Program-made: the position numbers and the translations under genes
Assembly (NCBI GenBank): GCA_018663505.1
Contig: JABJQG010000066.1
Span: 1-49,067, forward strand
Reading direction: 5' to 3'
DNA length: 49,067 nt
Source of the DNA: Pseudobdellovibrionaceae bacterium
GTDB lineage: Bacteria; Bdellovibrionota; Bdellovibrionia; Bdellovibrionales; UBA1609
Notes under the pieces: model-generated
Told to the model about the DNA's origin: nothing
Database searches by the model: none
What the model saw: the letters and a program-made list of their open reading frames with translations, nothing else
In this document: piece after piece, positions 3,993-9,927 of the stretch
Numbering within the stretch: the stretch's first letter is position 1
Layout of the letters: every line of letters starts with the position of its first letter

Positions 3993-4044
3993 GTTTTCTA
4001 GTTACAGGCTCACAATCTTAACAAATATAACCTCTTCGGTAATA

Positions 4045-4138
4045 CTAGTTTTTAAAAATCAACTCTACAGATTGAGGTAATTATTCTTTGGTTATTTTTT
4101 GGGTTTTTTCTGCCAGTTTTTCGGCTGAAGGATTACTT
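4045..4138 (-). pseudogene. Decayed 3' end of a penicillin-binding protein gene
   Basis: Read on the minus strand, this stretch encodes SAEKLAEKTQKITKE-stop-LPQSVELIFKN-stop. It aligns with the last residues of the intact PBP gene next door (EELAEKIQGVAKEKLPKSVELIFKN). The lysine codon after KE has become TAA, and a 2-nt difference breaks the frame further upstream. The first 18 bases (4045-4062, CTAGTTTTTAAAAATCAA) are identical to 5498-5515. It is a displaced or duplicated copy of the PBP 3' end; the DUF4143 ATPase gene lies between the two copies. Confidence 0.8.
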
Positions 4139-4317
4139 ATAGTGCTTTAATTTTATGGGAGGATAGAGCATTGGTTTCATCAGCATATGATGACATCTTC
4201 AATAGAAATTTTGAATGTTTTCAGTGTGTATTTTTAGATCGAGCATTGTGAGAAGAAGCAGGACCTGACAGCCATTATCGGGAAAAATCATTGACAGGAT
4301 ACTCAAATTCCTGGAAA

Positions 4318-5490
4318 ATGACACACATGGTACGCAGAATTCTAAGCAATCTCATTGAGAAACTCCCTAAGGGGTTAATATTACTAGGACCACGCCAGGT
4401 TGGTAAAAGCACCTTAGCAAAGGGTTTAGGGGCAGATTTGCAGATAAATTTAGCCGATGAGGAAACTTATCAAAAGCACCTTAAGGATCCTGGGCTCATT
4501 AAAAGAATTGTGAACGCTGAAGATAAAAAAGCTCTGGTTGTTTTTATAGATGAGATTCAACGGATTCCATCTATGCTAAATACAATTCAGGCGCTAATTG
4601 ATGAGAATAAATCGCGACGTTTTGTGCTCACAGGTTCATCAGCAAGGAAGTTGAAGAGGGGGCAAGCGAATCTTTTACCTGGAAGAATTTTTTGGAAGCA
4701 CCTGTCTCCTTTTTTATTCTGGGAGATTGAAGATCAGTTTGATTTAAAAAAGGCTTTAATTACAGGAACTCTTCCTGAGGTATATCTTGAAGACTATGGC
4801 AGGGAATTATTAAAGTCATATACATCTACTTATTTAAGAGAAGAAATTCAAGCAGAGGCTTTAACTAAGGATTTAGCTTCTTATGCTAGATTCTTAGATT
4901 TGGCAGCTGAGTTAAGTGGGCAATATATTAATTATTCTAAAATTGCGAGTGATTCAGAAATAAATAAGGAAACTATTCGTCGATATTTTGATATTTTAGT
5001 TGATACCTTAATTGTGGAAAAAGTAAAAAGTTATACGCAAGTATCCAAAGAAAGAAAGGCGCGACAAAAAGAACGTTTTATTTTTTTTGATTTAGGAGTT
5101 AGAAATGCTATCTTAAAAAGAGAAACTTCAAATTTTTCAAAAGAAGAGATGGGCTTTCTATTTGAACAATGGATCACTCTACAGGTGATTTACTTAAATA
5201 GAACTATGGACCTTGATTGGGAAATAACATCATATCGTGATGATAGAGGCTTAGAGGTAGATTTAATTATAGAAGATAAAATCGAACTTACAAGCGTAGA
5301 AATTAAGTCATCTCAAAGAGTTGATGTAAAAATGACCAAAAACCTTGTTCGTTTCGAAAAAATCATTGGCAAAAAAACATCAAAAATAATTGTATATCAA
5401 GGAGATGAAACACAAAATTTTGATAATGGTTGTAAAGTTTTTCCTTATAAAAAATTTCTAAATGATCTACTAACAAAAGCGAAAAGCTAA
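4318..5490 (+). CDS. AAA-family ATPase with C-terminal DUF4143 domain
   Basis: An ATPase of the AAA_14/DUF4143 family, common in bacteria and archaea, often on mobile DNA, with unknown cellular role. The N-terminal half carries Walker A GPRQVGKST, Walker B FIDEIQ, and a sensor-like LTGSSARKL. The C-terminal half includes the DUF4143 nuclease-like segment (LFEQWITLQ..., EVDLIIEDK, VEIKSSQ), resembling a PD-(D/E)XK core with D, E and K in order. The frame is open back to a TTG at 4291; ATG codons at 4318 and 4327 better fit the usual start just before the RRI-helix. No Shine-Dalgarno is decisive. It is flanked on both sides by copies of a PBP 3' end and stops 7 bp from the convergent PBP gene, suggesting acquisition. 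Confidence 0.85.
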   Translation: MTHMVRRILSNLIEKLPKGLILLGPRQVGKSTLAKGLGADLQINLADEETYQKHLKDPGLIKRIVNAEDKKALVVFIDEIQRIPSMLNTIQALIDENKSRRFVLTGSSARKLKRGQANLLPGRIFWKHLSPFLFWEIEDQFDLKKALITGTLPEVYLEDYGRELLKSYTSTYLREEIQAEALTKDLASYARFLDLAAELSGQYINYSKIASDSEINKETIRRYFDILVDTLIVEKVKSYTQVSKERKARQKERFIFFDLGVRNAILKRETSNFSKEEMGFLFEQWITLQVIYLNRTMDLDWEITSYRDDRGLEVDLIIEDKIELTSVEIKSSQRVDVKMTKNLVRFEKIIGKKTSKIIVYQGDETQNFDNGCKVFPYKKFLNDLLTKAKS

Positions 5491-5497
5491 TGAACTT

Positions 5498-7774
5498 CTA
5501 GTTTTTAAAAATCAATTCAACAGATTTAGGAAGCTTTTCTTTAGCAACACCTTGAATTTTTTCTGCAAGCTCTTCTTGGCTGAAGCTTTCTTTTCTAACG
5601 TAGTCTGGCCAAGGGAAATCTTCTGCAGGGTATTGAGTGGCATAGGATTTCATAAATTGAGTCCATATGGGCACAGCTCCTGATGCACCGGTGAGTTTGT
5701 GGCTGGTGTTGTCGTCGTAGCCTACCCATACTAGGGTGACCACGTGAGGTGTGAAGCCCACAAACCATGCGTCTCTAAAACCAGTGGTGGTTCCTGTTTT
5801 TCCTGCCGCGGGATGCAGAAATCCACGGGATCGTACTCCTCGGCCGGTTCCGTTTTCGACCGTGTTTTTCATGATGCCAACCAAAACGCTAGTGGTGTCT
5901 TCTGATAAACTGTGTGTTAATTTTTTTTGATGTTCAAATAAAGTGTTTCCCTTGAGGCTCTCCACTCTTTCCAAAAGATGTAATGGAATGTTCTTTCCCA
6001 GACGGGCAATGGTAGAGTAGGCCTGAAGCACTTCTATTGCACCCAGTTCGAAGGCCCCAAGTGCAATGGACGGATAGGGTTTGAGTTCCGCGGTAATGCC
6101 CAACCGTTTTGCAGTATCTATAATGGCCGAAGCACCAATTTGAACGGCAATTTTTGCGGTAGGAACGTTGAGGGAGTTTTTTAGTGCATAAAATAAAGGA
6201 ACTTCTCCGCGGAATTTTTTATCATAGTTTTTGGGACTCCAAGCTTGCTTTTCAAACTTATGAGTAAATGGGCTGTCGTCGATGGGGGAAAGTGGGGTAA
6301 ATTCATTGCCGTTTTCGTCCAAAGATTCTAAGGCAGTGAGGTAAACTATGGGCTTCATTATGGAACCCACTTGTCTTTTTGCATTAAGTATTCTGTTGTA
6401 CTGTGTTTGATTAAAACCACGCCCACCAACAAGGGCTACTATATTTCCAGTGGTGAGATTGGCAGAGATTAAACTAGCTTGTAGTTTTTTATTTTCATCT
6501 TTTGCTAAAGACTGAATAAGTTTAAAGCGTGACTCAAGGTTTTTTAATCCTTGCCGCACAGCCACCTGTGCCGATTTCTGGGCTAAAGGGTCTAGAGTTG
6601 TATAAACGCGTAAGCCTTTTGAAACATCAATATTTAAGTCTTTTAATTTCTGATTAATGGTTTGTATAAAATATGGGGCAGGTTCTTTTAATAATGAGGG
6701 AGGTCGATTTGGAAGTTTTTTGTTCAGAGCTTGTGAGTAAGCCTCATTGTCTATCATATTGTACTTTTTCATATCATTAAGTACTTTATTGCGTCGAACA
6801 AGGGCTCGATCAGGGTGTCTAAATGGATTAAAGCCTCCAGGGCTATTTACGATGGCGGCCAAAAGTGCACACTCGTTGAGAGATAACTTTCTTAATGGTT
6901 TAGAAAAGTAATGCTCTGAGGCGGAGGAAAATCCTCTAATTTCAAAAGGGCCATTTTGTCCCATGTAAATTACATTTAAATAATTATTGAGTATTTCATC
7001 TTTAGGAATTTTATACTCTAGAAGTAAGGCGATAAAGATCTCTTTAATCTTTCTTTTGTAAGTTCGTTCTGCAGTTAAAAAATAGTTCTTAACCAGTTGC
7101 TGAGTAATGGTGCTACCACCTTGAGATTTTCGTCCTTTTAAAATATTTTGAAAAAATGCTCTCAATATACCAGTGGGACTGATTCCCTGATGTTCTAAAA
7201 AATCATGATCTTCGATGGCCGTAATAGCTTGTAAACAAAATAAGGGAGTTTCATCTAGTTTAACGGCTTTGCGCAACATGGGTTTGTTGCCGACAAATTG
7301 AGCAAATAATAAGGGGGGTAATGCAATATTTTGAGATACAGTTGCTCTCTCGCCTAGAAATGTTTGAATCACCTTACTGTCAAAATTTAAAGCCACAAAA
7401 TGAAGCTGTTCATTTGAATTTGGTATAAATACAATGCAGCTTTCCAGTTCTTGATCTAAATCATCTTCTTTTATGTGGTTAAGGCATCTCTGCTTTTTCC
7501 AAACACTATAATCCATGGGCCAAAGTTTTTGCTGTGGATCTCTTTTGCGAAACAGTCTTTTTTGAAATTGAAAATCTAAGTTTTTAAGGGGGATATGAGT
7601 GTTTTTGATAAATCTTTTTGCAGAGGTATAGTACTCCACTGGAGGTAAAAACCAGCCTTCTTTTCTTCTTAGATCGATGTCTTTATTTATGGTGTACAGC
7701 CATGTACTTAATAAAATGATTGTGAGCGTCAGCAGGGCCAAGGAACCAGCAAATATGATTTTGAAAAGCTTCAT
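5498..7774 (-). CDS. Bifunctional penicillin-binding protein (PBP1B-like)
   Basis: A 758-aa class A PBP that polymerises lipid II and cross-links peptidoglycan at the outer face of the inner membrane. It has one N-terminal membrane segment (about 7-29). A glycosyltransferase 51 domain spans about 165-340, with EDHDFLEHQG (catalytic Glu188) and KSQGGSTITQQLVKN. A transpeptidase domain follows with SIMK (Ser471), SLN (534-536) and KTGTT. A region at about 85-160 is likely the UB2H-like/linker segment of PBP1B. All catalytic motifs are intact. The last ~90 bp exist as a second, decayed copy at 4045-4138, so this 3' end may be a replacement. It is divergent from the DUF507 pair. Confidence 0.93.
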   Translation of the reverse strand: MKLFKIIFAGSLALLTLTIILLSTWLYTINKDIDLRRKEGWFLPPVEYYTSAKRFIKNTHIPLKNLDFQFQKRLFRKRDPQQKLWPMDYSVWKKQRCLNHIKEDDLDQELESCIVFIPNSNEQLHFVALNFDSKVIQTFLGERATVSQNIALPPLLFAQFVGNKPMLRKAVKLDETPLFCLQAITAIEDHDFLEHQGISPTGILRAFFQNILKGRKSQGGSTITQQLVKNYFLTAERTYKRKIKEIFIALLLEYKIPKDEILNNYLNVIYMGQNGPFEIRGFSSASEHYFSKPLRKLSLNECALLAAIVNSPGGFNPFRHPDRALVRRNKVLNDMKKYNMIDNEAYSQALNKKLPNRPPSLLKEPAPYFIQTINQKLKDLNIDVSKGLRVYTTLDPLAQKSAQVAVRQGLKNLESRFKLIQSLAKDENKKLQASLISANLTTGNIVALVGGRGFNQTQYNRILNAKRQVGSIMKPIVYLTALESLDENGNEFTPLSPIDDSPFTHKFEKQAWSPKNYDKKFRGEVPLFYALKNSLNVPTAKIAVQIGASAIIDTAKRLGITAELKPYPSIALGAFELGAIEVLQAYSTIARLGKNIPLHLLERVESLKGNTLFEHQKKLTHSLSEDTTSVLVGIMKNTVENGTGRGVRSRGFLHPAAGKTGTTTGFRDAWFVGFTPHVVTLVWVGYDDNTSHKLTGASGAVPIWTQFMKSYATQYPAEDFPWPDYVRKESFSQEELAEKIQGVAKEKLPKSVELIFKN

Positions 7775-7908
7775 AGTTATACATAGGCTTTAATTATGAA
7801 TGTGTGCAACAATCATCATAAAAAAATGGCATTTTTTTGCTTAAAGTCAGTTTTGAAATGCAGGGCGAAAGTCTTGACTTTAAAGGTCAGAGAAAGTCTA
7901 GTTACGGT

Positions 7909-8187
7909 ATGAGAATTACAGAGAAACAAATGAAAAGAATGGCTCAATTTATGATTGAGGAATTGAAAAGTGAAGACTTTGTGCAATTTAAACAAAAAGA
8001 AGACATTGCTTTAAGTAGAGCAGTTGCCATCATAAAAAAGAACTTCAATGATGAGAAGCTTCTGGATCAAGAAGTGAATCAGATGATGGATGATCTAGAG
8101 AGACAAAACGCGGGTGAATTCCAGCGTTATAAAATGTTTCCTATGTTAAAAAAGAAAATCGCAGAACAAAAAGGGTTTGTCTTATGA
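7909..8187 (+). CDS. DUF507 family protein (first of a pair)
   Basis: The frame opens at a TTG (7837), but the ATG at 7909 (MRITEKQMKRMAQFMIEELK) gives 92 aa, the usual DUF507 length and the usual N-terminus (MR-hydrophobic-SE/TE-x-Q). DUF507 proteins are small, highly helical, cytoplasmic and of unknown function. The C-terminus (RYKMFPMLKKKIAEQKGFVL) is typical. The stop overlaps the start of the next DUF507 gene by 4 bp (ATGA), so the pair is translationally coupled. Confidence 0.75.
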   Translation: MRITEKQMKRMAQFMIEELKSEDFVQFKQKEDIALSRAVAIIKKNFNDEKLLDQEVNQMMDDLERQNAGEFQRYKMFPMLKKKIAEQKGFVL

Positions 8188-8456
8188 TTTCAGAAGATAG
8201 AGCAAGTCATCTTACACATTTGGTCATTGACGGTATTTGGAATGATGACCTGGTAGAATACAAGGATGAAGAAAAAGCTGTAGGTATAGCAAAACGTGGA
8301 ATGAACAAATGTTTAAAAGAATTTTCTGAGGTAGATCGTGCGGCAAAAGCCACTGTTCAATCTCTTAAAAGAGGCGTTTTAGAAGGAACCCGTGAATGGG
8401 ACATTCTTTACAATAAATATTATGAACAAGAGATGCAAAAAAAAGGCATTTCTTAG
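8184..8456 (+). CDS. DUF507 family protein (second of a pair)
   Basis: A 90-aa helical protein paralogous to the gene just upstream: both have an N-terminal helix, a middle (V/A)-x-x-(A)-(R/K) segment and a C-terminal tract followed by KKG. The start overlaps the upstream stop (ATGA). Function is unknown; the fixed pairing suggests the two products act together, perhaps as a heterodimer, which is inference. Confidence 0.75.
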   Translation: MISEDRASHLTHLVIDGIWNDDLVEYKDEEKAVGIAKRGMNKCLKEFSEVDRAAKATVQSLKRGVLEGTREWDILYNKYYEQEMQKKGIS

Positions 8457-8508
8457 ATCTAGTTGAGTGCATTGGATGAATACATTGGAAAACCCAAGGA
8501 GAGAAAAA

Positions 8509-9927
8509 GTGAACAAAAAGGTTTTAATATTAGTTTTAGCATGTGCAACTTACCTATCTAGTTTTGCAGGTGATTTTGAATGGTCCGGTTTATACCGTTT
8601 TGAAGCTAACCACATTGAGAACTCAGAGTTAGATAGCTCAAAAAATAATTTTAAGGATTATGGCCTTCACCATTTAATACTTAAACCAAAAATAGTGGCC
8701 GCAGATGGGCTAACTATATTTGGTCGCTTTGATATTATGAATTCGGGAAATTATTTTCATGGTCAACTTTTTGGTGGAGCCAATAGAACAATAAGTACTT
8801 CGAATATAGAAGAAACAGACTCTGTTGGAAATAACATGGGCACAGATTCTCTATTGATTTCTCAGCTTTATGCAGAGCTTTCTCATGAGTTTGGCTTACT
8901 TAAAGTAGGACGTGCGCCATTGCATTTTGGTTTAGGTTTAAATTTAAATGCAGGCGCAGGTGACTTTGACCATTACTCTGATACTCGTGACCTGCTTTCT
9001 TATGAAATAGCTATGGGTAACTATAGTTTTATTACTACAGTGGGCAAGGTTGTTGAAAACACCATAGAGAAAAATACAGATGATGTTAATGAATATATCT
9101 TTAATTTAAATTATGACAATAGTGATGCAAAACTAAAAATGGGTGTACTTTATCAAATGCGAAGAGCGGCAGGCGGCATTAAAGACGTTCCTTTTGGTAC
9201 AGGAAAAGTAGGTGGTGCTGGTGCAACTAGACCAGCCTCTTCTGAAAAATTTGAATTTAACAATATTAGTATTTACTTTGAACGTACGGAAGAAACACAT
9301 CGTTGGGCATTAGAGACAGCTTTTATTGATGGAAAAACAGGAATATTAGACGCCAGTGACAACAATGTTGGCTTAAAATCATATTTGATTGGTTTTGAAT
9401 TTGATTACTTACCTACGGCATCTGATTTTAAATATGGATTTAAATTTGGTAGTGTGAGTGGCGACAACCCTAACACAACAAATACTTATGAAGGTGCAGC
9501 TTTTGATGCTAACTATGATGTTGCTATGCTTTTGTTTAATCATCAGTTAGGATCAAGTGATATATTAAACTCTACTATTTACGGTGGAGGAGCTGGTACT
9601 ACTAATGTTCAGTTAGATGTTGAACGCGTAACAAACACCACTTACCTTTCTCCAAACATTAGTTACCAATGGAGAGAACGCTGGAACTTGGGTGCCTCAT
9701 TTACTTTAGCAAATTTAAATCAAGTAAATGTATCTGGAAGTGACATGTCCAAGAGTTTAGGTTCTGAATTAGACCTTGCATTAACCTATAAACCGAATGA
9801 CAATTTAACCTGGGTGAATACAGTGGGCTACTTAATGGCAGGTGAAGCATTTAAGGGAAGTACTACTGATAATTTTAATAACGATTCAGCCATTGGATAT
9901 ATGAGTAAGATTGCTATCCGCTTTTAA
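8509..9927 (+). CDS. Outer-membrane beta-barrel protein (porin-like)
   Basis: Start chosen at the GTG at 8509, 7 nt after AAGGAG; the open frame extends 14 codons further upstream but without a ribosome site. This gives 472 aa with a signal peptide (KKVLILVLACATYLSSFAG) and a mature part beginning DFEWSGLYRFEAN. Alternating hydrophobic/polar strands run throughout, and the chain ends IGYMSKIAIRF; a terminal Phe is the classical outer-membrane barrel signature. The overall pattern resembles porin-type barrels with 14-18 strands; substrate unknown. A strong terminator follows at 10002-10028. Confidence 0.8.
   Translation: MNKKVLILVLACATYLSSFAGDFEWSGLYRFEANHIENSELDSSKNNFKDYGLHHLILKPKIVAADGLTIFGRFDIMNSGNYFHGQLFGGANRTISTSNIEETDSVGNNMGTDSLLISQLYAELSHEFGLLKVGRAPLHFGLGLNLNAGAGDFDHYSDTRDLLSYEIAMGNYSFITTVGKVVENTIEKNTDDVNEYIFNLNYDNSDAKLKMGVLYQMRRAAGGIKDVPFGTGKVGGAGATRPASSEKFEFNNISIYFERTEETHRWALETAFIDGKTGILDASDNNVGLKSYLIGFEFDYLPTASDFKYGFKFGSVSGDNPNTTNTYEGAAFDANYDVAMLLFNHQLGSSDILNSTIYGGGAGTTNVQLDVERVTNTTYLSPNISYQWRERWNLGASFTLANLNQVNVSGSDMSKSLGSELDLALTYKPNDNLTWVNTVGYLMAGEAFKGSTTDNFNNDSAIGYMSKIAIRF

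Follow-up and report, generated by a model that had tools for sequence, protein, structure and literature searches.

A penicillin-binding protein gene end duplicated around a newly arrived DUF4143 ATPase gene, with a probable origin by single-crossover integration

The window analysed here, a stretch of 49,067 nucleotides from a Pseudobdellovibrionaceae bacterium (GenBank assembly GCA_018663505.1, contig JABJQG010000066.1), carries an AAA-DUF4143 ATPase gene of the PDC-S01 kind that converges on the 3' end of a class A penicillin-binding protein (PBP) gene, and beyond the ATPase gene lies a decayed second copy of that PBP end. We consider it probable that this layout arose by homologous integration of a circle through a single crossover at the PBP gene. 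A compact single-gene cassette of about 1.37 kb, made up of a promoter and the AAA-DUF4143/PDC-S01 gene, would have entered the chromosome at the PBP 3' end, most likely as a circle together with a short PBP 3' end that it had acquired from the corresponding gene of a related donor. A single crossover within this PBP homology would account for the three parts now seen: an intact PBP gene, the cassette and a decayed second PBP end.

The duplication is seen directly in the alignment. Positions 4045-4138 (the relic) and 5498-5591, read on the reverse strand, are equal at 61 of 94 bases without a gap; their gapped local score is 44, where 1000 dinucleotide shuffles reach 22 at most, and blastn of the relic against the PBP end gives 88 bp at 76% identity (E 1e-14). 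The terminal 18 bp (4045-4062 and 5498-5515) are the same in both copies and occur in these two places only within the window. In frame, the relic reads EKLAEKTQKITKE*LPQSVELIFKN* and its counterpart in the intact PBP EELAEKIQGVAKEKLPKSVELIFKN* (asterisks are stops), a lysine codon of the PBP having given way to a stop at 4081-4083. The relic, its stop and its identical terminus had all been noted in a preliminary description of this DNA, and each was borne out. Over the 26 codons compared there are 4 synonymous and 6 nonsynonymous differences and 1 stop, and mismatches number 7/2/10 at codon positions 1/2/3; because of this distribution, much of the divergence looks coding-like and unlike random decay, and the two PBP tails appear to have diverged, in part at least, as coding DNA. 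Chance similarity or a shared intergenic repeat has a negligible probability: although the region is AT-rich and some hits of the survey described below resemble repetitive extragenic palindromic (REP) sequences (for example L313), the score set against the shuffles excludes chance, the two copies have reading frame and stop in common, and positions 4000-5700 gave one match only when searched against the bacterium's own genome.

The ATPase gene is a newcomer at a native PBP locus, because DUF4143 genes are missing downstream of the PBP gene in all 15 relatives whose sequence extends 1.8 kb or more past it (L039, a sixteenth, extends 34 bp and is outside this count). The order PBP-DUF507-DUF507-porin is conserved in relatives, so the synteny upstream of the PBP gene is intact. 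Insertion of the ATPase gene at the PBP 3' end, as the preliminary description had proposed, is thereby upheld; it had named as contrary patterns a tandem PBP without the ATPase and an ATPase ancestral to the locus, and the 15 relatives display neither. A tandem PBP duplication, with one copy decayed and an unrelated ATPase gene inserted later between the two, would agree with the common orientation of relic and PBP and with their coding-like divergence, but we hold it to be very improbable: about 94 bp of PBP are left, with an abrupt edge, a tandem PBP occurs at the locus in 0/15 relatives, and the layout recurs at unrelated genes. PBP C-terminal tails are highly variable among the relatives, too much so to polarise the two copies, and a scan of the genome's contigs for PBPs returned distant ones only. 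Within the window element no site-specific recombinase was found, the ATPase being the sole open reading frame (ORF) of at least 80 amino acids between the repeats, and its flanks lack terminal inverted repeats (their inverted score of 12.0 does not reach 17.0, the maximum of the direct-repeat null). The ATPase gene likely starts at ATG 4327 and not at the listed TTG 4291, as that TTG belongs to the TTGACA -35 box.

A second case, in Ensifer adhaerens, reveals the anatomy of the crossover. Two plasmids (L356 and L357) carry a 1.24-kb relic of the dnaE2 3' end, the ATPase gene and an intact, convergent dnaE2, exactly the arrangement of the window; in four further E. adhaerens records dnaE2 plus flank match as a single stretch, and two of these (L363 and L364) are empty sites from which the ATPase is absent. 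The downstream flank of the relic is 93% identical to that of L363, and in a phylogeny the dnaE2 relics group with empty-site dnaE2 (support 0.98). Relative to the empty-site gene, the intact dnaE2 is 94.6% identical along its 5' body and 88.6% identical in the duplicated 3' part. Among polarised sites 200-900 bp from the stop, the relic agrees with the empty site at 50 and the intact gene at 14; at 900-1100 bp the counts become 2 and 19 (p 2.6e-8 for the switch). The intact dnaE2 is a native 5' body with an imported 3' end, joined at a single crossover some 900 bp away from the stop; the inner edge of the relic resembles the donor, and the remainder is native. We conclude that in the dnaE2 case a circle with the ATPase gene and a replacement gene end integrated by a single crossover: the native end was displaced, and the functional end came from the element. 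Among 17 plasmid DUF4143 loci, the flank repeats are long in L356 and L357 only and measure 19-30 bp in L345, L346 and L360; the other 12 have none.

Duplicated target ends recur around DUF4143 genes, of which we gathered 180 non-duplicate examples from the bacterium's own genome, its order and its phylum. When 400 bp upstream of each gene were aligned with 250 bp downstream, 11/171 genes scored at least 22, the threshold, compared with 0.10 predicted from mispaired flanks. In blastn of 1.3-kb flanks, direct repeats were found at 11/163 DUF4143 genes and 2/192 control ORFs (Fisher 0.008), and repeats bracketing the gene tightly, that is, with the nearest edge at most 300 bp upstream and at most 150 bp downstream, a criterion chosen after the hits were seen, at 9/163 and 0/192 (Fisher 8e-4); an earlier control (6/110 DUF4143 genes, 3/148 ORFs) was weak by itself. 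Five of the nine tightly bracketing repeats are target-gene ends, two tRNAs among them (Table 1). The copies lie 1226-1440 bp apart, with no integrase inside, in all five cases measured, and repeat lengths span about 55 to 1242 bp with no constant-length target duplication. At the glutathione peroxidase (GPx) locus L174, the relic continues into an intergenic stretch similar to the native one (AAGACATGG) and then gene X; the ATPase is absent from all nine congener GPx loci, of which L329 and L332 show the expected order, GPx and then gene X. For the tRNA-Tyr locus L169, the congener G017 has the tRNA without the ATPase, and its next gene is inverted. The GPx and tRNA-Tyr cases are consistent with an element carrying a replacement end.

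A tyrosine recombinase, supplied in trans or since lost, that inserts elements site-specifically at the 3' ends of genes, as for islands that target tRNA genes, would accommodate the two clear tRNA targets (L158 and L169), whose shared block begins in the anticodon-loop or D-arm region, and the finding that wherever a tRNA lies within 300 bp of a DUF4143 gene (L070, L158, L169 and L312) its 3' end faces that gene. We judge this unlikely: 0/5 cases have an integrase between the repeats, the lengths of the repeats vary, prmA was used at its 5' end, and the dnaE2 crossover lies about 900 bp inside the gene. No relic was found on the other side of the tRNAs at L070 and L312.

Table 1. Features around the ATPase gene of the window, and target ends at surveyed DUF4143 loci.
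Locus	Feature or target	Positions	Strand	Basis or remark
Window	Relic of PBP 3' end, displaced or donor-derived	4045..4138	-	Alignment; in-frame stop 4081-4083
Window	18 bp equal to intact PBP end, including stop codon	4045..4062	-	Sequence identity
Window	Inserted unit, about 1.37 kb, between the two PBP-end copies	4131..5497	+	Only ORF of at least 80 amino acids is the ATPase
Window	Promoter-like TTGACA-17-GAAAAT just 5' of ATG	4291..4319	+	Putative assignment
Window	AAA_14-DUF4143 ATPase, PDC-S01-like: Walker A/B AAA+, winged helix-turn-helix (wHTH)-like middle, C-terminal PD-(D/E)XK-like nuclease domain (predicted)	4327..5490	+	
Window	18-bp equal end of intact PBP; stop 7 bp from ATPase stop, convergent	5498..5515	-	
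Window	Intact class A PBP, transglycosylase and transpeptidase	5498..7774	-	Domain matches
Window	Two DUF507 genes and a porin-like gene	7837..9927	+	Synteny upstream of PBP kept in relatives
Window	Target PBP 3' end			Among the nine tight brackets
L158	Target tRNA-Cys			Among the nine tight brackets
L169	Target tRNA-Tyr			Among the nine tight brackets
L196	Target prmA 5' end, 182 bp, 91%			Among the nine tight brackets
L266	Target ORF 3' end, 160 bp, 94%			Among the nine tight brackets
L174	Target GPx 3' end			Alignment test only
L304	Looks like a tRNA end			Contig stops there

By analogy, we infer that the event at the PBP gene was of the same kind as that at Ensifer dnaE2. The preliminary description had likened the layout to integration into the 3' end of a gene by an element carrying a replacement end. 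In kind this stands, given the newcomer status of the ATPase and the empty sites and phylogeny of dnaE2; entry into 3' ends does not stand as the sole mode, since the prmA 5' end is duplicated, and because of this and of the wide range of repeat lengths, homologous single-crossover integration fits better than a fixed att core. Several points weigh against single-crossover integration of a circle at the PBP gene. No circle was observed; the relatives compared at the PBP locus include no congener of the window genome; and phylogenetic polarity comes from dnaE2 alone among the target-end cases. Less than 200 bp from the dnaE2 stop the sites are mixed (relic equal to the empty site at 7, intact gene at 12), which leaves room for more than one exchange. 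A target-end repeat is present at only 6 genes of 171 (7 with L304), most DUF4143 genes having none, and 4 of the 11 hits of the alignment test (L211, L303, L313 and L295) are not clear target ends.

Some integrative elements and genomic islands enter the 3' ends of genes or tRNAs and supply a replacement end. The dnaE2 case resembles them in its intact target, with the native end displaced to the other side of the unit, as do the window and the loci of Table 1 in carrying the target end as a direct repeat on either side; unlike integrase-type elements, the units here are about 1.3-1.4 kb, with one gene, no integrase, repeats of variable length and use of a 5' end as well. Translocatable circles of the IS26 type integrate by homologous recombination, and the proposed route would be similar in that a circle reintegrates by one crossover to leave direct repeats with a mosaic; it would differ in that the homology is a captured host gene end and not a copy of an insertion sequence (IS). 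The absence of terminal inverted repeats in the window and the spread of repeat lengths also set the element apart from a DDE insertion sequence.

Comparisons of plasmid sequences indicate that the gene moves elsewhere as a bare unit of about 1.36 kb. For the gene on the A. tumefaciens plasmid pAt, three plasmid records share 1361 bp at 92.6% identity and nothing beyond, a segment that in these pAt and pTi plasmids begins 79 bp 5' of the ATPase gene and stops where pyc ends; the unit of Ensifer L358 has only 1.34-1.39 kb, at 86-88%, in common with three other Ensifer plasmid contexts. To the left of the ATG stand iterons (TTTAAATTGGACGG) at -58 and -36, sometimes at -14 or -80, 22 bp apart: at least two are present in 11/12 rhizobial PDC-S01 loci (L348, L352-L362), and three occurred in 0/2400 shuffles. 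The right end TTATGGAACT is conserved, with unrelated sequence directly after it, in 6/7 copies of the rhizobial subfamily. Among the genes collected from the phylum of the window, long palindromes lie over the start region: 66.5 kb of upstream sequence contain 43, whereas 134.6 kb of gene bodies contain 8 and 65.8 kb of downstream sequence 10.

Autonomous transposition, in which the AAA-nuclease protein would recognise its own ends (iterons or palindrome at the left, the conserved sequence at the right) and insert the single gene, is in agreement with a unit that alone is common to unrelated contexts, with abrupt divergence beyond the right end, with iterons at set offsets from the ATG and with the enrichment of palindromes just 5' of the start codon. 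Operators are, however, expected under plain autoregulation too, and there is neither a constant target duplication nor a pair of terminal inverted repeats. Nor did the insertions of pAt, pTi and Ensifer L358 yield a true empty site; L350, with pyc and no ATPase, was rejected as one because it appears to retain ATCACATAATC...TTATGGAACT beside an IS, a stretch resembling the element's right end. We regard autonomous transposition as quite unlikely. A wider proposal, that PDC-S01/DUF4143 genes, which rank among the commonest candidate defence genes, are single-gene mobile elements with an operator (promoter palindrome or iterons) and defined ends of their own, and that the protein cuts at or close to these ends and releases circles that often take the neighbouring gene end with them as homology for entry into a new host, is tentative, and we consider it doubtful.

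The palindromes over the start region may serve autoregulation by the ATPase's own wHTH. Perfect or near-perfect examples of about 30-74 bp cover the promoter or start codon (for example in L206, L073, L130 and L125), and those of L125 and L130, from different genera, are nearly the same. The ATPase promoter of the window lacks a strong palindrome (score 5, null mean 5.3); relative to homologues, it retains the right palindrome half only, the left half having decayed.

The window protein matches PF13173 (AAA_14) at 86.7 bits (cut-off 27), PF13635 (DUF4143) at 91.1 bits (cut-off 28.1) and seven PADLOC models of PDC-S01 (best E 1.1e-60); NCBIfam gave no match above its cut-offs, and a sequence search of solved structures returned general AAA proteins only. 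An AlphaFold2 model built with 21 relatives from viral contigs scored 88.7 in predicted local distance difference test (pLDDT) and 0.90 in predicted template modelling (pTM). Its closest solved structures, the archaeal AAA+ ATPases PABY2304 (2qen, Z 15.5) and SSO1545 (2fna, Z 15.4), align with the AAA-wHTH part over 241-245 residues at a root-mean-square deviation (rmsd) of 3.3-3.4, followed by NLR and CED-4 proteins; this alignment is confined to residues 1-264, with the DUF4143 nuclease-like domain outside it. Taken by itself, the C-terminal domain (pLDDT 93.9) matches McrC (Z 9.6, rmsd 3.4, 118 residues) and also Can2, FokI and Hjc, and E310, D312, E325 and K327 are invariant in 22/22 sequences. 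The protein is thus predicted to be an ATPase fused to a PD-(D/E)XK-like nuclease domain, a description of fold that does not imply activity, and like PDC-S01 in PADLOC it is a single gene product with AAA and nuclease-like domains.

PDC-S01 is a candidate phage-defence family, common but unvalidated. The accessible text of two papers describes it as a candidate defence system (PMC12988326, PMC13356809), and that of the first reports it as the fourth most common defence across prokaryotes and adds that most such candidates still await validation (PMC12988326); in neither accessible text is integration anatomy or mobility of the unit mentioned for PDC-S01. A literature search, with most subscription papers outside its reach, turned up no account of this integration anatomy. 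In the phylum survey 208/368 genomes were positive for DUF4143, and those scored in full held from none to 38 matches (38 in G111). If the gene travels alone as a cassette of about 1.3-1.4 kb and displaces gene ends as it does so, this would help explain such a patchy, multi-copy distribution, and whether it is a defence gene or a selfish gene would become directly testable. The displaced ends are readable scars by which insertions can be dated and polarised.

Four repeats of the alignment test were set aside as target ends. That of L313 is REP-like, beside a gene that we take to be RAYT-like; that of L211 is the end of another ATPase; and those of L295 and L303 are short, with no assignable target. 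At L211 and L303 the DUF4143 genes adjoin other or broken DUF4143 genes, and the repeats lie at the ATPase stop. At L158 (contig C49 of genome G096) the native tRNA-Cys is in two halves, with the ATPase between the 3' half and an intact tRNA-Cys: the 5' half (GGTGGCG) lies 166 bp from the intact tRNA and the 3' half (CGCCACC) beyond the ATPase, and the acceptor stem of the intact tRNA differs from that of the split one and is self-consistent. Contigs of metagenome-assembled genomes often stop within about 200 bp of the ATPase gene (for example L120, L123, L130 and L145), which hints at repeated flanks. DUF4143 copy number varies widely among relatives (G111, G097, G040, G096 and G083, and in the phylum survey), and DUF4143 relatives occur on 28 viral contigs (L367-L394) and in 10/50,697 phage records.

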